From a virus, in the IMG/VR virus record IMGVR_UViG_3300010354_000339, positions 1 to 32,107 of that record: a stretch of DNA of 32,107 bases; one strand, written 5' to 3'. The position numbers and the translations under genes were made by a program. This document shows, piece after piece, positions 5,036-32,107 of this stretch; the stretch's first letter is position 1; the number at the start of each line of letters is the position of its first letter. A model generated the notes under the pieces. That model was given only the letters and a program-made list of their open reading frames with translations, was not told the origin of the DNA and did not search any database.

Positions 5036-6466
5036 TTAACCTAGATAACTTATCAATGTAGACACACCGGGCGCGTTAGATGATGTAGTAGTTGCTGCAT
5101 CAAAAACTTCGCTTGCTGATACTCCTATAATACTTGCAGGAGTATCTAACAATAAATTTCCAGAAATTTCTGTTTCTGTAGCAACTGCATAAGTCAATGT
5201 ACCTGATGGAGACCAAGTATATGATCCATTACCGGGAATATTACCATTATCTGGTAAACACATCACTGTAGCATATGTATCACGCTGACATCCTACAAAG
5301 ATTCTATCATTACCTGTAGTTATTTGTAAACTATTATCAGGTAAATTGCTATTTTCTAAATTGTTTATTTTAAATGCTGCATTCGATGTTAATAAGTTTT
5401 GCCATTGTATATTACCAGTATTATCATATTTGGCTAACCATATATTGCCACCTGATTTCATGCCAGCAACATATATGTTACTATCATCTTTCAATGCAAC
5501 GCTATATAATGACACATTTGCAACTTCTCGCTGCCATTGCACTGTACCATTACTGTATGTTTTTACAAAATAACCTTTACCTGTACTGTCTCTACCAACA
5601 GCATAAATGTTGTCAGTACTATCAAGTTTATGTTGACTTGCTAGTAAATTGACATTTGCAATATAAAATGGATCGTTCCATACTGTAGGTAATACATCAT
5701 ATGCATATCCAGTATTACTACTAGTTTGATTAAGTTCTGCTAATATCATTCTAGTTTCGGTATTACTTTTCCATAAATTATAGAATACAGTAATATTACC
5801 AGTACTTGTCAATGACATAGATGCGCAATATATTTTATTTGCTGGTGTACCACTAAATCCACCTGGTGTTGTTAAAACACTTTCTGCTAATATATTGGCA
5901 TTAGCATTTGTATTACTCATTTTTTTAATATGAATATCGCTAGGATTAGTTAATGGTGGTACTGATCTACTAGCGATATAATAAGCATTACCTGGATCAT
6001 TAATTGCATTATGTATAAAATAATCACCTGGATTTACATTTCCAGCATTTACCATGCGCAATGATGAACTTGCATTGCCGGTAGTACCATCAACAAATGA
6101 TGCAAATCCTCTATTAGCAGAATTCACATTTAAAAATTGATATCCGTTCAATCCTAAATTTATATTTGCTGTATTAACATTTTTAAAGGTAACAACATTT
6201 GTATTAACAGTATTGGCACCGGTACCTTCGTTTAATGTAAAATATTCACTGACAGGATTTTTATCACCATTTATTTTTAATATACCAAAATGATCTGTAC
6301 CTGTTTTAGTACCTAGGTAAACACAGGGCTGTGATGAATCTCTAAACATACCAACAACTGTGCTTGTACCAGTAGTTGTTGTAACACCATAGCCCCAATA
6401 TTCTCTTGAGGCATTTAGTTCAATTTTGGCATAAGTCAATGCACCTACGCTACCAGTAATTGGCAT
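5036..6466 (-). CDS. Beta-propeller-like tail fibre protein
   Basis: A 476-aa protein, rich in Asn, Thr and Gly. Two clear repeat blades occur in the C-terminal half: NIYAVGRDSTGKGYFVKTY followed by VQWQRE, and NIYVAGMKSGGNIWLAKYD followed by IQWQNL. The pattern (x-I-Y-V-x-G, then x-G-x-I/V-Q-W-Q) is that of PQQ/SBBP-type beta-propeller repeats, which bind partners or glycans rather than catalyse. More divergent blades may lie upstream. The start ATG overlaps the stop of the preceding collagen/YadA-like fibre gene (TAATG), so the two are probably made in a fixed ratio. A role in receptor recognition is inferred from context. Confidence 0.75.
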   Translation of the reverse strand: MPITGSVGALTYAKIELNASREYWGYGVTTTTGTSTVVGMFRDSSQPCVYLGTKTGTDHFGILKINGDKNPVSEYFTLNEGTGANTVNTNVVTFKNVNTANINLGLNGYQFLNVNSANRGFASFVDGTTGNASSSLRMVNAGNVNPGDYFIHNAINDPGNAYYIASRSVPPLTNPSDIHIKKMSNTNANANILAESVLTTPGGFSGTPANKIYCASMSLTSTGNITVFYNLWKSNTETRMILAELNQTSSNTGYAYDVLPTVWNDPFYIANVNLLASQHKLDSTDNIYAVGRDSTGKGYFVKTYSNGTVQWQREVANVSLYSVALKDDSNIYVAGMKSGGNIWLAKYDNTGNIQWQNLLTSNAAFKINNLENSNLPDNSLQITTGNDRIFVGCQRDTYATVMCLPDNGNIPGNGSYTWSPSGTLTYAVATETEISGNLLLDTPASIIGVSASEVFDAATTTSSNAPGVSTLISYLG

Positions 6467-7860
6467 TAGACGAATCCTGTTCTAGTTGCAAATACTGTAT
6501 ATGTGTTTGCTGCTGTTTTTATGATATTGAAAGTATAATTGTCGCGTCCATTTGTAGTACCATTACCTACATTTCCAGTTGTACCAGACCATACTGGTGT
6601 AATATTACTACCATCGATCTGTATGACATTAGCAACATAAGCAGTTGCACCATTTTTATTCATAAATGTACAAGTCATGCTTTGATTGCTACTCATGGTA
6701 TTGTTTAATGTAGTTGTGCTATTACCTCTTATATTTAAAGTAAAGTTTGCAGTTGCATTACCAGTTCTAAACTGTATCGCACCATCAAGCACATCAAAAT
6801 TAATTGTACCAGTAACACCTGTGCTATTCGCTACAACAGTTTCTTTAATAACACCAGTGGTCAAATTACTAAAATTATTACTATATGTTATTTCACCAGC
6901 AGTTGCATCATAAAATAAAATATCAGTTGTACTTGCATTTCTTATTGGTTTTACAATTAGACTATTTGCTACTGTGCTGTTTAAATCAACGCCGGTAGCA
7001 TTTATAATTATTGTATTATCATGTTGATTAGCATTACCTGCATAAGAACCAAATGCTATCGCATTGGTACCTTGATTACCATATCCAGCAGCACGCCCAA
7101 TAGCAACAGAATTATTTGCTTGACTACCTGATCCTGAATCATAACCAATTGCGATTGAATATAAACCCTGTGTCACACCGCCTGCACCAATACCTAGACC
7201 AATACTGTATTGTCCTTGAATATTTGAACCAGCGCCTTGTCCGATAGCAATTGCACCGATACCTTGTTGGTCATAACCTGCTGCATCACCGATAGCAACA
7301 CCCCAATATGATTGTGAATTAGAACCTGCTTGATTACCTATCGCGACCGCATTGACACCCTGACCATTTGCACCTGCATTCGCGCCTAAATGTATATTTG
7401 CTGCTGTAATTCTTAAATCTACTAAATTACCTAAACTAGTGATATTTGGTTGTGCTGCATTAGCAACTGTCAATGCATAACCAATTACATTACCATTAAA
7501 ATTTGGTGCTGTGATATTACCTTGCGCATTCAATGTGCCAGGTATTGCCATAGCATTTGTCGTGTAGTCAAATGTAAATCCTGTTGATCCACCAAACGCA
7601 CCATTGCTATTATATTGAATTTGTGTATTGCTGCCACCTACTGCACTGGGTCCTGTCGCACCAGTAGCACCAGTTGGTCCACCGCTTGGGCCGGTAGCGC
7701 CGGTAGGACCTGTTGCGCCTGTAGGACCAGTAGCACCTTCGGGTCCACTAGTAAAAATGTTTAAGTTAACTGCTTCTGGAGCAACAGTGATAGGTGGCGG
7801 TTCAGGTGTGATTGTCAGCGTTATTGGCTGAACAACAATGTTGGCAGTAATATCTGACAT
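6466..7860 (-). CDS. Collagen-like fibre with YadA-head-like repeats
   Basis: A 464-aa trimeric-type fibre. Residues 1-37 are a Pro/Val-rich anchor (ITPEPPPITVAPEAVNL). Residues 39-71 are Gly-X-Y collagen triplets. [17 protein letters not shown] module follows (about 76-91), then an ITSLGNL repeat. About residues 155-290 form six or seven repeats such as GVNAVAIGNQAGS and QGIGAIAIGQGAGS, the pattern of the left-handed beta-roll of YadA/Hep-Hag trimeric adhesins. The last ~130 residues form a beta-rich tip. The architecture closely parallels that of the giant fibre, so both likely attach to the same tail component. It starts one nucleotide after the upstream stop. Confidence 0.85.
   Translation of the reverse strand: MSDITANIVVQPITLTITPEPPPITVAPEAVNLNIFTSGPEGATGPTGATGPTGATGPSGGPTGATGATGPSAVGGSNTQIQYNSNGAFGGSTGFTFDYTTNAMAIPGTLNAQGNITAPNFNGNVIGYALTVANAAQPNITSLGNLVDLRITAANIHLGANAGANGQGVNAVAIGNQAGSNSQSYWGVAIGDAAGYDQQGIGAIAIGQGAGSNIQGQYSIGLGIGAGGVTQGLYSIAIGYDSGSGSQANNSVAIGRAAGYGNQGTNAIAFGSYAGNANQHDNTIIINATGVDLNSTVANSLIVKPIRNASTTDILFYDATAGEITYSNNFSNLTTGVIKETVVANSTGVTGTINFDVLDGAIQFRTGNATANFTLNIRGNSTTTLNNTMSSNQSMTCTFMNKNGATAYVANVIQIDGSNITPVWSGTTGNVGNGTTNGRDNYTFNIIKTAANTYTVFATRTGFV
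7648..7746 (-). repeat. Collagen-like Gly-X-Y coding repeat in the YadA-like fibre
   Basis: About 11 triplets ([13 protein letters not shown]...) encode residues 39-71. The nucleotide units are nearly the same as those of the giant fibre, which gives direct-repeat DNA within the fibre cluster. Confidence 0.85.
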
Positions 7861-25906: not shown

Positions 25907-26175
25907 TAGTGTAATGTCCCATCTGTATTAGTGTTTTTGTTTTGTTCTTCTAACGCAATTTCTTTTAGGTTCTGCTCAGTAAGCAATGAGCCTAAAAAGT
26001 TATATACTGCTTCCATACTCAATATTGTAAAGTCAACACCGCGCTTTTCATCTACTGACATTTTGCTAGTATCGATGTCTTTTGCATTACGCAATGCTTG
26101 TTTAACATCTGTCATCAATGGTTGTATAGTGACCCATACAATATTATCTTCAGCCCTGTGTAACATGTAACTCAT
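25906..26175 (-). CDS. Hypothetical protein
   Basis: An 89-aa protein with a well-formed AAGGAG 7-8 nt before its ATG. It overlaps the end of the GNGxSR gene by 26 nt. It is helical and charged, with a Gln/Asn/Thr end (EEQNKNTNTDGTLH). No motif is recognised. The overlap and ribosome site show that it is a real gene. Confidence 0.7.
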   Translation of the reverse strand: MSYMLHRAEDNIVWVTIQPLMTDVKQALRNAKDIDTSKMSVDEKRGVDFTILSMEAVYNFLGSLLTEQNLKEIALEEQNKNTNTDGTLH

Positions 26176-26746
26176 TTATTATCTCCTTGAATTGTTCAAT
26201 TGTTATGTTTGTAAAGTTTGGTTCTTTGCAGACTGGTTTATAATCTATGCCCTGCACTCTAGTAATTTTTGTATTTGGATATGTTTTGCACCAATGACGC
26301 AATCTGCTTTCCCATTGTGTGAGCATAAAATGTCCACCATTGTTTATTGGGCCTGGTTGATAATGTGTTGTACCTGCGTAGACATTATCTATATACTGAT
26401 TATGTGTTTGGTAATCAAATCCTATCATATAAATTTGTTGATGACCATTGCTACATGCTAATCTTAATGCGCCTGTACCACTATCACCCATAAACTTATC
26501 TTGTATCACAAAATTGATTGGTTCTCCGTTCTTATGTCTGTTATCCATCTTTGTACCATGCTGAGTATAAAATTTAGTCTTATAATGTGCTTTCTGATCT
26601 AATATTTCATCTGCTATGCCCATATCATGACTGATCAAATAGTCTGGTATGAAGTCACGGTACAATGCATTACAACCATATGTTGTAAAGATGTTTTGCA
26701 ATTGATGTAAGTCAAAGTTTAATCTACTTTTACCATTACCAATCAC
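26150..26746 (-). CDS. GNGxSR-motif protein, DUF115/MptE-like
   Basis: About 198 aa from a GTG at 26746. The N-terminus VIGNGKSRLNFDL is the glycine-rich signature of DUF115/MptE-like proteins, followed by TYGCNALYRDFIPDYLISHD, a typical second segment. Members act on nucleotide-activated or pterin substrates and include proteins linked to flagellin glycosylation. Longer starts exist (ATG 26818, TTG 26866), but they run through the 49-aa gene in another frame, so I prefer GTG. No good ribosome-binding site supports any of them. The family call is from the motif only. Confidence 0.65.
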   Translation of the reverse strand: MIGNGKSRLNFDLHQLQNIFTTYGCNALYRDFIPDYLISHDMGIADEILDQKAHYKTKFYTQHGTKMDNRHKNGEPINFVIQDKFMGDSGTGALRLACSNGHQQIYMIGFDYQTHNQYIDNVYAGTTHYQPGPINNGGHFMLTQWESRLRHWCKTYPNTKITRVQGIDYKPVCKEPNFTNITIEQFKEIINELHVTQG

Positions 26747-26753
26747 TAGTGCA

Positions 26754-26903
26754 TTATTTCTTTTTGTATCCACCAGTATATCCGCTTGCGTATGCTGCTC
26801 TTGCTTGCTTTTCAGCATCACTACGCTTTTTGTAGACTTTGCCGCTGCTACCCCATTGATAGCCAACTAACTTACCTTCTTTATAAACTCTATGTACTGG
26901 CAT
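26754..26903 (-). CDS. Conserved-looking 49-aa basic phage protein
   Basis: Starts ATG 26903, MPVHRVYKEGKLVGYQWGSS, and ends AAYASGYTGGYKKK. AGAGGT lies about 8 nt before the ATG. The pattern 'YQWGxSGKxY...A..QARAAYASGY' recurs in small proteins of phage genomes, by recall rather than by search. It is basic and Tyr-rich, with no known function. It overlaps alternative starts of the following GNGxSR gene. Confidence 0.75.
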   Translation of the reverse strand: MPVHRVYKEGKLVGYQWGSSGKVYKKRSDAEKQARAAYASGYTGGYKKK

Positions 26904-26920
26904 TGTGTGTACCTCTTATA

Positions 26921-27121
26921 TTATTTATGATTTTTACAGATATGCGTATCAAAGTTGTTATTGGCGTTTTTGTTGAAACCCCTATTACAAACGCTACAAC
27001 GACTGCCTATGACTTTCCAAATTTTGGTTGATTTTATATAGGCATAAGTGGTATTGATCATTCTAGTTCTAGAGTTCAATACTTTTTTAAGTTTATTTTG
27101 GTATAAGACATGATCCATCAT
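26921..27121 (-). CDS. Small zinc-finger-like protein
   Basis: A 66-aa basic protein with a C-terminal Cys/His set: CSVC (C42, C45), then THICKNH (H60, C62, H65), spaced as in a small zinc ribbon or C2H2-like finger. The first part is basic and helical. There is no clear ribosome-binding site, and two ATGs adjoin each other (27121 and 27118). It could be a nucleic-acid-binding regulator. Inferred from the motif. Confidence 0.6.
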   Translation of the reverse strand: MMDHVLYQNKLKKVLNSRTRMINTTYAYIKSTKIWKVIGSRCSVCNRGFNKNANNNFDTHICKNHK

Positions 27122-27141
27122 GTACTTATACCCAATATATT

Positions 27142-27567
27142 TTACATGTTGAACAGCCTTTGACGGAACTCAATCTTTTCCATGTCAGGTACATTTGGTT
27201 GTAATTGCAAGCCCTTGACTGCATCATAGATCAGTTCCATGTTCGCGCTAATGTTTTCTAATGCATCCATTTGTACTTGACTGAAATCGTTTTGATTGCC
27301 AAACATAAGATTATTAAGCAAGCCAGCGATAAAACTCTCAGGTGTGTTCCAACCATCTTTGCCCTTTGGTAATGTTTCTGTTCGTTTACCATACCACTGA
27401 TTGACAATGTTTTGTATGTCTCTGTTGCGTGACTTTTTAAGTTCGCCCATCAATGACATATATCTGATCAGTTCTTGCTGAACATAAGCCATGTCTTGTG
27501 CTTCTATTTTATTATATTGAGTTCTAGCACTAGTTGATTTCGGGTCGTAATTTATTATCTTTGCCAT
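27142..27567 (-). CDS. Hypothetical protein
   Basis: A 141-aa protein with a basic first half (helix around AYVQQELIRYMSLMGELKKS) and a mostly polar second half ending MEKIEFRQRLFNM. It lies 3 nt after the DUF5710 gene, with GGAG inside the end of that gene. No family is recognised. Confidence 0.7.
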   Translation of the reverse strand: MAKIINYDPKSTSARTQYNKIEAQDMAYVQQELIRYMSLMGELKKSRNRDIQNIVNQWYGKRTETLPKGKDGWNTPESFIAGLLNNLMFGNQNDFSQVQMDALENISANMELIYDAVKGLQLQPNVPDMEKIEFRQRLFNM

Positions 27568-27570
27568 GTG

Positions 27571-28020
27571 TTACTCCGTGTATGCTTGACGATTACCTTT
27601 GGTAGATAACCAATCATGTACCATGTCATAATCATCTTGATGAATATATTTATATAAATGCTCTAGTTGTGGATTTCCAGTGTGGGTATACCATGATTTT
27701 TCTTCTGGATGCCATCGTGCGCCATGGTTTTTGGCATAATCTTTTTCTTGAAATGAAACATTCAACCAAATTAATTTTTCTCCACTTGGTATATAAATGA
27801 AATGTGGTTTTGGTGTCTTAATTGCATTCCTATTGAAGTCATCTAAAAAATCACAATATAACATTTGTTTGTATCCCATATCAGTCCAATAATTGAGTTT
27901 ATCTTGGCTTGCCCAATTGATGGCTTGTTGACATGTATGGCAATATAATCTTGCCACATGTGATTTGTATTGTTTACCTGTAGGTATAATACTAATGAGA
28001 TGTGTATCATGTATATTCAT
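27571..28020 (-). CDS. DUF5710-domain protein, first gene of the late operon
   Basis: A 149-aa protein. Residues 83-113 (LIWLNVSFQEKDYAKNHGAR, then WHPEEKSWY) match the short DUF5710 domain (LxVxFxEKDxAKxxGARWxPxxKxWY), found next to primase- and antirestriction-type domains in plasmids and phages. Residues 27-30 (CHTC) may bind zinc. AGGAG lies 7 nt before the ATG. It is the first gene after the putative late promoter near 28050. The exact activity is unknown; nucleic-acid contact is a reasonable guess. Confidence 0.75.
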   Translation of the reverse strand: MNIHDTHLISIIPTGKQYKSHVARLYCHTCQQAINWASQDKLNYWTDMGYKQMLYCDFLDDFNRNAIKTPKPHFIYIPSGEKLIWLNVSFQEKDYAKNHGARWHPEEKSWYTHTGNPQLEHLYKYIHQDDYDMVHDWLSTKGNRQAYTE

Positions 28021-28045
28021 GTGTTACTCCTATATCCCTCAATGT

Positions 28046-28051
28046 ATTATA
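28046..28051 (-). promoter_or_regulatory. Candidate -10 element of the late promoter
   Basis: The minus strand reads TATAAT, 26 nt before the first late gene's ATG. No -35 match lies 16-18 nt upstream. Instead a dyad AGCAT-GA-ATGCT (28063-28074) occupies that place, which would suit a promoter depending on an activator. Confidence 0.4.
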
Positions 28052-28079
28052 TAACGAGTACCAGCATGAATGCTAGTGC

Positions 28080-28108
28080 TATGGGTTGGTATCAAATACC
28101 AACCCATA
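28080..28108. repeat. 29-bp perfect palindrome upstream of the late operon
   Basis: Two 13-bp arms (TATGGGTTGGTAT and its complement) flank CAA. It lies about 30 bp upstream of the putative -10 of the minus-strand operon. It could be an operator for a dimeric regulator, an activator site, or an RNA hairpin. It has no T-run, so it is a poor terminator. Confidence 0.7.
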
Positions 28109-28128
28109 ACAATAATATTAGTAAACAC

Positions 28129-28176
28129 ATCAGGTGAGTTGGCTGGTGAGCGATAGCGAACAAGCACTCACCTGAT
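28129..28176. repeat. 11-bp inverted repeat enclosing GTGAGCG-containing DNA
   Basis: ATCAGGTGAGT at 28129-28139 pairs with ACTCACCTGAT at 28166-28176, with 26 nt between. GTGAGCG inside the loop (28146-28152) recurs at 28266-28272 inside a CCCG/CGGG hairpin. A CTGCC-GCAT-GGCAG hairpin follows at 28181-28194. This may be a folded RNA or a protein-binding array. Confidence 0.6.
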
Positions 28177-28536
28177 AGCACTGCCGCATGGCAGGGCTTA
28201 CATACAAAATAATATGGTGAAATAATTAATTATGTGACCAAACAAGAACTACTCACTCACTGCCCGTGAGCGGGAACACACAGCGAAATCCGTGAATGTA
28301 AAACAGCACATACTTTATCCGCTCATTATTGCCATCATCAATGACATCACAGTTTGTTTTTGGGTCCAGTTGTTACTATTATCCAATAGTATCGTTGTGA
28401 TTAGCAACGCCTGTTAGCATCTATGAACAATGTTTGCGCGGTTTATAACTTTGACTTGCTGTATCGTCTATCGTATTACTACGACCCAAATCCTTTATTG
28501 TCAGTATTTGTATACTCTAGGATCTAGCAGTTGAAC

Positions 28537-28638
28537 CGTGTTATAGTTCGTAATTTTATTTATATAACATTTAAAATAACCAATAAAAAAACCCCATAAA
28601 ACGCTAAATTTTATGGGGCTACGAACTGGTATAACACG
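28537..28638. other. Long two-part stem enclosing an intrinsic terminator
   Basis: CGTGTTATA and GTTCGTA (28537-28552) pair with TACGAAC and TATAACACG (28620-28638), interrupted by a TGG bulge. Together they make a 16-bp stem around the terminator hairpin at 28592-28618. The total length is about 102 nt. The whole could be a small RNA or a replication/packaging signal. Confidence 0.6.
28585..28618 (-). terminator. Strong intrinsic terminator for leftward transcription
   Basis: On the minus strand CCCCATAAAA / TTTTATGGGG makes a 10-bp stem with a 7-nt loop, followed by seven T's. No minus-strand gene lies between it and 29564, so it best serves as the end of a transcript coming from the LamG/fibre genes. 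Confidence 0.85.
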
Positions 28639-28704
28639 ACCAGCACTCTTAGATGAGCAATAATATTTATGCCAAGAAAAAAGAGTGTAAAAACATATAA
28701 TATT

Positions 28705-28732
28705 TTTACCCATTTAATTAGACTTATATAAT
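28705..28732 (+). promoter_or_regulatory. Promoter for the 56-aa plus-strand gene
   Basis: TTTACC (28705-28710, four of six matches to TTGACA), 16 nt, then TATAAT (28727-28732). Transcription would start near 28739 and leave a leader of about 50 nt with a small CGCTG-A6-CAGCG hairpin (28755-28770) before the ribosome-binding site. Confidence 0.55.
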
Positions 28733-28788
28733 ATTAATTGATATTATATCTATACGCTGAAAAAACAGCGATACACAGGAGATAGAAA

Positions 28789-28959
28789 ATGGAAAAGTAT
28801 ACTTTACAAGATGTAGTAACAGAATTGAGTAATATTGAACAAGCAATTCTAAATCCTAATACAAATAGTTGGAATCAATCAATAGGTGACGAATTACATC
28901 AAATTGAATATCAACTAGGAAGAATAGCAGATAGTTTAGAAAAAATAGCAAATAAGTAA
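28789..28959 (+). CDS. Small hypothetical protein (56 aa), opposite strand to the operon
   Basis: MEKYTLQDVVTELSNIEQAI begins a 56-aa helical, acidic protein that ends SLEKIAN K. AGGAG (28777-28781) lies 7 nt before the ATG, the best-placed ribosome-binding site in this region. A promoter lies upstream and hairpins follow. Its leucine/isoleucine spacing suggests a small coiled-coil or dimerising protein. The family is unknown. It is transcribed opposite to the whole virion operon, so it may be an early gene or a regulator. Confidence 0.8.
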   Translation: MEKYTLQDVVTELSNIEQAILNPNTNSWNQSIGDELHQIEYQLGRIADSLEKIANK

Positions 28960-28966
28960 AAAGAAA

Positions 28967-28984
28967 GTCTCCCGAAAGGGAGAC
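28967..28984 (-). terminator. Hairpin after the 56-aa gene; terminator for leftward reading
   Basis: GTCTCCC GAAA GGGAGAC is a perfect 7-bp stem with a stable GAAA tetraloop (plus strand). On the minus strand it is followed by TTTCTTTTT, so it can stop leftward transcription. In the plus direction no T-run follows. Confidence 0.65.
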
Positions 28985-29031
28985 GATCTTCTGTGTAAGC
29001 GCAAGTTCATCTAAACTTCTAGACACTCTTT

Positions 29032-29061
29032 ATCCGTAGTGTGCGCAAAACGGATTTTTTT
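29032..29061 (+). terminator. Intrinsic terminator for the plus-strand 56-aa gene
   Basis: ATCCGT ... ACGGAT makes a 6-bp stem with a 12-nt loop, directly followed by seven T's (29055-29061). It is about 75 nt after the stop of the 56-aa gene. Confidence 0.75.
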
Positions 29062-29188
29062 AATTAATGTCTGGGATTAGCCCCAAAGTAAATCCTACCA
29101 ATAAGGAGTCTCTCATTAAGTTGCAAGGCTAATAATATCCCGCCCACGGATCAGACAAAGTGGGCATTAAATATTGTTGATGCGAAAG

Positions 29189-29215
29189 CAGGGTAGCACT
29201 CCCTGAGGGGTTTTT
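29189..29215 (+). promoter_or_regulatory. Possible attenuator: two competing hairpins before a T-run
   Basis: CAGGG/CCCTG (29189-29193 with 29201-29205) can form, or alternatively CCC/GGG in CTCCCTGAGGGG followed by TTTTT (29211-29215). The two exclude each other as in transcription attenuators. The stems are short, so this is tentative. It would act on the 52-aa gene downstream. Confidence 0.35.
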
Positions 29216-29223
29216 CTTGTGTG

Positions 29224-29250
29224 ATCCCGAGCAAGGTGCGCAATCGGGGT
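29224..29250 (+). other. CCCGA/TCGGG hairpin, copy 1
   Basis: ATCCCGA pairs with TCGGGGT (7 bp with one G-U), with a 13-nt loop that contains GCGCAA. A related hairpin lies directly before the next gene (29379-29399). Together they look like a repeated RNA element. Confidence 0.5.
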
Positions 29251-29378
29251 GTTAATTTTATAGTTTTTAACGAATTGCGATAAATAATTGTGTGTATCTA
29301 GACTTGCGGTGTTGTTCCGAAATATCCTAAGTTGTTAATTACCATGTAAAAAAATAGCAAGTCATTTGGAACTTCGGT

Positions 29379-29399
29379 CCCGAAAGCGCACATATCGGG
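29379..29399 (+). other. CCCGA/TCGGG hairpin, copy 2, next to the start of the 52-aa gene
   Basis: CCCGA and TCGGG enclose an 11-nt loop containing GCGCA. The hairpin ends 9 nt before the ATG at 29409, where a ribosome-binding site would be expected but is missing. It may control translation. Confidence 0.5.
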
Positions 29400-29408
29400 C
29401 TCTTGAAT

Positions 29409-29567
29409 ATGTCAGAAACAATATACACAATCAAATACCATGTAGAAGATACTGAACAGCGTGAAGTGTTCAATACTTTGGAAGAGGCACAAAACCAACT
29501 CAATGAAATGAGTGAAATGTGGCCTAATGCTGTTATTATCACAAAAATAATCGATAGTACAAATTAA
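29409..29567 (+). CDS. Small hypothetical protein (52 aa), convergent with the LamG gene
   Basis: MSETIYTIKYHVEDTEQREV continues to WPNAVIITKIID and ends at 29567. The alternating pattern (TIYTIKYHVEDT, helix EEAQNQLNEMSEM, then strand AVIITKII) looks like a small folded alpha/beta protein. No AGGAG-type site is seen; a hairpin lies just upstream instead. The stop overlaps the stop of the LamG gene on the other strand by four bases. The function is unknown. Confidence 0.7.
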   Translation: MSETIYTIKYHVEDTEQREVFNTLEEAQNQLNEMSEMWPNAVIITKIIDSTN

Positions 29568-30945
29568 TTATCTGGGAAAGCAGTTGTTGGTGGCGTGAAG
29601 TTAGCAGTATATCTTGCTATACCATTTGTAATACGCATTTGTCCCAAATATGCGTTTGGTCCACTTAATATATTACCACGCAATGGTACATTACCGCTGT
29701 TAACAACATTGCCCACACTATTACCATCTACATAAAATACAATATTGCTACCATCTCTTACTGCTGCTAGATGGTGCCAACTATTATCTCTATTATTTGC
29801 AGTAGTATAAACAGCACCACTATTAGATACTATACCAAAATTATAATTACCAGTACTTGGATTGACTGTTCTTATTTGTAGTGAAGTTGCACCTGAACCA
29901 CCATCAAATAATATTGCATTTGTATTTGATGTGCTATTGTCCATGTAGATAAATGCTTCTATAGTAAAATTACCAGTTGCAGTTGTATCAGTATTGCTGC
30001 TTGTATTATTTCTTGCTGGCCATATCAACACATTTGACACATTTGCTGCGCCCAAACTTTTGATTGTATTTGCACCAGTAAATTTTTGGTAAGTATTGCT
30101 TTGTTCTGCTATTGTACCAACTTGACGAATACCATGACCTTTTATACTGACATCATAGAATGCGCCTTCATCACCATTCATTAAGAATTGTGTATTGGCA
30201 TCACTAGTTAATGGAGTTCTTTGTGGTGTAAAGTTAGCAGTATATCTTGCAACATTACTTAATCTAGCACCAGCAACATAACCATAAAATTGATTATCAC
30301 CGGCGCCGGGGCCAGTACCGATACCACAACCCAAATTAAATGCACTAAAACTTAGTGTACCAGTGCTTGTCGCAGAACTTTGTCCTGCTAGATTACCATC
30401 AAAATAATATTTTAAATTATTACTTGCATTACCACTACGCACCAATGCCATATGTCTCCATACGCCATCATTGCTTGTAGTATTACTAGTAAAGTTAAAT
30501 GTTGGTCCACCATAACTATCAGCGCGCCATATATTAGCACGACCTGCTACTGGTTGATGACTAAAGAATCCACTGTTGTTTGCACTGATGATTGGGCTTG
30601 GATATGTGAATAATGGGCTATCGGTAGGAGCCATTGCCCAACATTCTACGGTAAAATCACCTGCATAAGTCGGTCCACCGCTACCAACACGCAATCCACC
30701 GCTGAATGTACCAGCATTATAATAACTTCCATAACTACCATTTGCATTTGCAGGATTTTTACCAGCATATGTTGCATATGTACCTACAGTAATAGAATAA
30801 TTGTTACTGCTAATATCTTTAAATGTTCTATCATTAATTTGACCACTATTATTAGTGTTCAATAATAAAATAACATTTGCCCAATTAGGATCACCTGATG
30901 GTGCTGGTGCTGGTTGTATCCAGAAAGTTTGTCTGCTTGAGAACA

Positions 30946-30946
<1 letters not shown>
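29564..30946 (-). CDS. LamG/concanavalin-like tail adhesin with two domains
   Basis: A 460-aa protein with two laminin-G-like (Laminin_G_3-type) jellyroll domains: FTVECWAMAP to ARYTANFTP (97-241) and FTIEAFIYMD to ARYTANFTP (326-452). Both show the WxHxAxVRxG strand (WRHMALVRSG, WHHLAAVRDG) and the YFDG / YVDG turn. These folds bind carbohydrates, so it is a likely receptor-binding tip partner of the giant fibre, to which it is coupled by TAATG. The two domains look like an internal duplication. It is the last gene of the leftward operon. Confidence 0.88.

Positions 30947-32107
<1,161 letters not shown>

Follow-up and report, generated by a model that had tools for sequence, protein, structure and literature searches.

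Phages are known to possess few large structured RNAs, mostly without known function. GOLLD and ROOL are large structured RNAs of phages and prophages that lie outside coding DNA and whose function is unknown (PMC12286853). The putRNA of phage HK022 is about 70 nt long and is built from two stem-loops (PMC9378689). Among the small structured elements located within or close to phage-type genes are the phage leader motifs manA and wcaG and STAXI, a pseudoknot motif (PMC2864571). As large non-coding phage RNAs, the elements B and X described below find their nearest kind in GOLLD and ROOL. The differences lie in length (about 600 to 800 nt, compared to 300 to 400 nt for B and X), in the lack of an Rfam match for B and X, and in the absence of tRNA genes from the window, i.e., the whole 32,107-base virus record that was analyzed. 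With putRNA, B shares the position of a phage RNA element before a long operon, but it is four times longer, carries a terminator-like end of its own, and is followed by a promoter-like site. For the pseudoknots D and A, the nearest kind are manA, wcaG, and STAXI: D precedes glycosyltransferase-like genes in three relatives, and both elements are pseudoknots, with a distinct sequence and architecture (loop GUGUGCGC, GCGCNAA).

A terminase search of IMG/VR yields 268 relatives of the window. The nearest named phages, all of them distant, are Phage DSL-LC06 (PMC10611076) and the Pelagibacter phages HTVC026P and HTVC112P, with portal identities of 24 to 26% and, like the window, sizes of about 30 to 32 kb. 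The genome of DSL-LC06 is likewise circular and nearly one-directional and contains 750 nt of non-coding DNA, at the end of which hairpins and TTGACA-17-TATAAT precede the late genes. This stretch differs in not being alignable with B or X; as a candidate homologue of B it was rejected, with a local alignment no better than shuffles. In the DSL-LC06 sequence (L137), the unannotated positions 572-1328 show the same layout, with a multibranched fold (z -1.2), hairpins, TTGACA-17-TATAAT, and a late gene, and a frame resembling the window gene 27571-28020 is found at about 608-798, interrupted by an in-frame TGA.

In the window, every gene of at least 80 aa lies on the minus strand, and counting such genes, positions 28021-29563 form the sole intergenic gap longer than 350 nt. 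The recognized proteins comprise a lambda-like tail set, portal, terminase, an FkbM methyltransferase, an HNH endonuclease, and an acetyltransferase. Comparison of 34 proteins with Pfam, PHROGs (25 of the 39 listed families examined), and NCBIfam revealed no recognized polymerase, primase, initiator, integrase, or repressor among the matches listed; the lack of replication genes in the window is meant here as none recognized. A search of the window for tRNA genes found none. The genome of about 30 kb, as well as that of the relative G001, combines a full virion set with no recognized replication or regulatory protein. The preliminary description had taken the genome to be circular, which agrees with the collagen-like fiber gene that spans both contig ends: after removal of a 13-nt terminal overlap, its two halves join in frame, and G001 keeps the same gene order continuously across the join point. 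The overlap sits in repetitive sequence and is by itself moderate evidence of circularity. The size of the window fits a complete circular genome, since the relative G011 shows a 123-bp terminal repeat at 34.9 kb.

The features of the intergenic region, together with the coordinates given for X in two relatives, are as follows.

28027-28031, minus strand: ribosome site AGGAG for the first late gene, read from the sequence
28046-28051, minus strand: -10-like TATAAT preceding the first late gene at 28020, read from the sequence
About 28061-28077, minus strand: dyad CCAGCAT/ATGCTAG in the -35 place, read from the sequence
28081-28107, minus strand: hairpin ATGGGTTGGTA-TTTGA-TACCAACCCAT, with a counterpart in the relative L007
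28130-28175, minus strand: TCAGGTGAGT...ACTCACCTGA, a long hairpin located after RNA B and before the late operon
28250-28590, minus strand: element B, conserved and non-coding, a probable structured RNA (conservation, fold statistics, no Rfam match)
28590-28620, minus strand: terminator-like hairpin of 13 pairs with a T run, directly upstream of B
28705-28732, plus strand: promoter-like TTTACC-16-TATAAT, well placed for a plus-strand unit, of a class whose count is at chance level
28789-28959, plus strand: small ORF of 56 aa with ribosome site AGGAGA before the ATG, no relatives found
28967-28984, no strand assigned: strong hairpin GTCTCCC-GAAA-GGGAGAC with a tail that is T-rich only when read on the minus strand
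29022-29056, plus strand: pseudoknot D, ACACT pairing with loop AGTGT, stem ATCCGT/ACGGAT, loop GCGCAAA (covariation)
29213-29250, plus strand: pseudoknot A, CTTGT pairing with GCAAG in the loop of stem ATCCCGA/TCGGGGT (covariation)
29379-29399, minus strand: hairpin C, CCCGA-TATGTGCGCTT-TCGGG, with the loop core of D and A
29409-29567, plus strand: small ORF of 52 aa from the ATG, without a clear ribosome site, no relatives found
L016:4355-4568 and L100:13807-14001: RNA family X, about 400 nt (coordinates of alignment A3)

This region appears to be a genuine control region based on RNA in an uncultivated phage group, because it holds a conserved, probably folded RNA of ~300 bases and two pseudoknots, none of them in Rfam. 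A reasonably probable reading is that of a single control region whose minus strand carries a separate RNA gene, B, and then the beginning of the late operon, and whose plus strand carries an early unit with pseudoknots. The region would then be the sole control region of a circular, almost wholly one-directional phage genome. On the minus strand, B would form a separate gene for a structured RNA of ~300 nt, with a terminator before it and strong hairpins after it, followed by the late operon. As a separate transcript, B would act as an RNA, most likely in trans, and may fill the same role as the unrelated X in sister genomes. The short plus-strand early unit would consist of D, A, and the two small ORFs.

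The hairpin density stated in the preliminary description is borne out by folding statistics, although the main feature of the region, the conserved block at 28250-28590, was overlooked there and the pseudoknots went unmentioned. For 100-nt pieces, the folding z averages -1.50 on the minus strand of the region and -0.53 on that strand elsewhere (P 0.03); on the plus strand, the averages are -1.23 and -0.38 (P 0.10). Terminator-like matches in 26000-32107 number 8, compared to 3.1 +/- 1.8 in shuffles; two of the three terminators originally proposed are good (28590-28620 and 28967-28984), and the remainder is weak. The proposed plus-strand promoter is well placed, but promoter-like sites as a class occur at chance level (31, compared to 27.6 +/- 5.6 expected). 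Both small opposite-strand genes are present as ORFs, with no detectable homologues of either; homology of the 52-aa ORF to a small opposite-strand ORF of L007 was sought and not found, and a role in defense or as toxin-antitoxin was discarded, with no PADLOC match. Their designation as early genes is plausible, as the same slot in relatives holds more opposite-strand genes. An origin and a packaging site had also been suggested for this region; neither gains support, as only weak two- or three-copy matches (68 to 80% identity) and no iteron-like tandem repeats are present and GC skew reveals no clear switch.

Element B shows 88.9% identity over 342 nt with the relative L007/G001 and is the most conserved long stretch of this genome pair, in which the other aligned segments show mostly 65 to 77% and the next-best segments of at least 150 nt reach 76.6% (27152-27572) and 73.4% (terminase). 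The non-coding flanks of B are not clearly alignable with L007/G001. A coding function was rejected, the largest ORF inside B having at most 43 aa. The preliminary description named as its refutation a lack of compensatory changes and of conservation outside the two ORFs, and the reverse is seen: the conserved part is non-coding DNA, and the ORFs are not conserved. The RNA proper would span about 28552-28250 (~300 nt), and the 40 nt upstream are probably promoter. The conservation of B, its non-coding nature, and its slot and strand are direct observations.

That B folds as an RNA is supported but not proven by its two independent sequences, further IMG/VR copies belonging to the same lineage. 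The folding z of the window sequence is -2.44 on the minus strand and -0.04 on the plus strand, and that of the L007 copy is -1.07. Substitutions break 5 pairs of the window fold, compared to 9.2 under random placement (P 0.028), and two pairs show changes in both partners (P 0.032). The fold of L007 itself gives no significance in the test on these two sequences (P 0.18), and the plus-strand fold gives no substitution signal. RNAalifold predicts 88 pairs with 0 broken, a result biased by the derivation of the fold from the same two sequences. Within the alignment, the stem UCGUA/UACGA stays intact while its GNRA-type loop GUAA becomes GAAA, and CGUUG/CAACG changes to CGUUA/UAACG; the latter local hairpin and the RNAalifold fold compete with each other. 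Rfam 15 gives no covariance-model match at the gathering score in the whole window, a best score of 25.4 bits against a cut-off of 59 in the region at E values up to 5, and nothing near a cut-off for the L007 copy. Known RNAs, GOLLD and ROOL included, were rejected on this basis, and no match to B was found in plasmids, named phages, or bacterial genomes; four contigs sharing an 18-mer with B (L110, L113, L114, and L129) proved to be chance matches. The case for B as an RNA is good, although based on two sequences, and these point to a stand-alone structured RNA; any function beyond that of a conserved structured RNA is more conjectural.

Because B rests on two independent sequences, the main rival is a recent DNA exchange between two phage lineages, by which B would be similar without any special RNA function. 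The confinement of B to two lineages fits such an exchange, as do the visibly mosaic control regions of the group, with X apparently recombined in L121, but the similarity ends at the edges of the non-coding unit, the genes to either side are much more diverged, and the fold of the minus strand withstands the substitutions. This explanation is considered unlikely, and the separate RNA gene is preferred.

Independent evidence for a structured RNA in this slot is X, a different RNA on the same strand in relatives, for which covariation across 12 sequences, with two-sided changes at 20 pairs, provides proof. Alignment A3 comprises L016, L100, L044, L033, L025, L042, L049, L116, L121, L122, L125, and L126. 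The structure contains 39 pairs, including the long-range pseudoknot GGGTAGA/TCTACCC, and 94.2% of the cells are paired, compared to 29 to 45% with the partners slid. Modular recombination of X between genomes is also apparent. X matches neither Rfam nor named phages; two 18-mer matches in bacterial genomes were thrown out by the profile, and a group I intron, suggested by its GAGATATAGTC, has no Rfam support even at E 5. B was also considered as a diverged X, and the covariance search was negative: with the model of X (R1), local matches in the window score at most 8.7 bits, the highest-scoring one falling outside B, and L007 reaches 6.8 bits, compared to about 200 bits for true members. Of the genomes that carry gene w27142 preceded by 500 nt or more of sequence, the window and the L007 lineage have B; all others have X, apart from the groups G004 and G005, which have neither, a point against the preferred reading. 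The two RNAs never occur together, and B genomes carry an extra gene, w27571, between the RNA and w27142. In L105, a 416-aa protein without a family match (5406-6656) lies in the slot where others hold X or B.

Between B and the first late gene, the 28081-28107 hairpin has the counterpart ATGGGGTGCGA-TTTGA-TCGCAGCCCAT in L007, with an identical loop, two pairs changed on both sides, and one mismatch; at the equivalent of 28130-28175, L007 has a strong but unrelated hairpin. The promoter position is occupied by TTGACA-17-TATTAT in L007 and TTGACA-17-TATAAT in G011, and a near-consensus promoter follows the RNA and strong hairpins and precedes the next gene in L007, G011, and DSL-LC06. The preliminary description had envisaged a small RNA here and the start and end of a circular late transcript, and both are supported by the conserved minus-strand RNA and by the hairpins and -10-like box that follow it and lead directly into the first late gene. 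This layout makes a separate RNA gene more likely than a simple leader, because hairpins and a near-consensus promoter (in the window, the -10 box and dyad) lie between the RNA and the next gene.

A cis-acting leader of the late operon, for example a processive antitermination RNA like the HK022 putRNA, is improbable. B does lie on the same strand directly before the long late operon, and the hairpins after it would need read-through; against this stand the -10-like box or full promoter between RNA and operon, the small size of putRNA (about 70 nt in two stem-loops; PMC9378689), and G011, which has a whole gene between X and other upstream late-sense genes. A replication origin or its primer RNA, in a genome without replication proteins of its own, is very improbable: the window has no recognized replication protein and B is its only strongly conserved non-coding segment, but neither iteron-like repeats nor a clear GC-skew switch accompany it, an unrecognized gene may be the initiator, and L016 carries X alongside a DnaC-like ATPase.

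Besides the separate RNA gene, the preferred reading includes the plus-strand unit, where D and A sit between the two small ORFs. In both, two interlocked helices are kept as the sequence changes, as expected of H-type pseudoknots. Among nine copies of D, stem position 5 is T-A, G-C, or C-G and position 6 shows all four Watson-Crick types; the knot helix (A/G)CACT/AGTGT is kept in 9/9 and nearly invariant, and the loop GCGC..AA is constant. The knot helix of A, CTTGT/RCAAG, becomes CCCGT/ACGGG in L007. D and A would most likely control translation or stability of the early genes, because copies in relatives often adjoin start codons: an ATG follows the stem by 9 to 28 nt in 6/9 copies of D and by 12 to 15 nt in 3/5 copies of A. 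The genes after D are an ~395-aa glycosyltransferase-like gene in three cases and three others. In the window, a 21-codon frame after D (29067-29132) is a possible target or a chance occurrence. A scan of IMG/VR with the D core found seven copies on six contigs, all of this family, and hairpins with the loop core GUGCGC are concentrated in the family's control regions, with a few scattered elsewhere that look like chance. Neither D nor A has an Rfam match in the stretch searched. The knot partner of hairpin C (ACAAAT in relatives) is imperfect in the window. The C loop of relatives, UUUGUGCGC, and the D loop, GUGUGCGCAAA, could form 9 pairs, two of them G-U, a pairing that might bring late and early transcripts into contact.

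A wider proposal, which is quite doubtful at present, is that interchangeable large RNAs (B, X, and perhaps that of DSL-LC06) control or prime the cycle in place of regulatory or replication proteins and that GUGCGC-loop pseudoknots control the early genes. If this were true, widespread phages of ~30 kb would code almost only for virion building and use RNA instead of such proteins. The unrelated B and X occupy one and the same position within a single phage group, next to a new pseudoknot motif and in genomes with no recognizable replication genes, and the question of what a large phage RNA does becomes testable by deleting or swapping one defined element.

Further elements are found in relatives. 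A group I intron (RF00028, 93.8 bits) lies at L012:9731-9955 between homologues of the window genes 19207 and 18124. The COG2908 RNA motif (RF02939) occurs near the end of the fiber region at L100:10326-10370 and L105:10445-10489. At L093:4040-5600, promoter-like units (TTGACA..., TATACTATC, TGACTGAGGTGATTTATG) are repeated before several small early genes on both strands.
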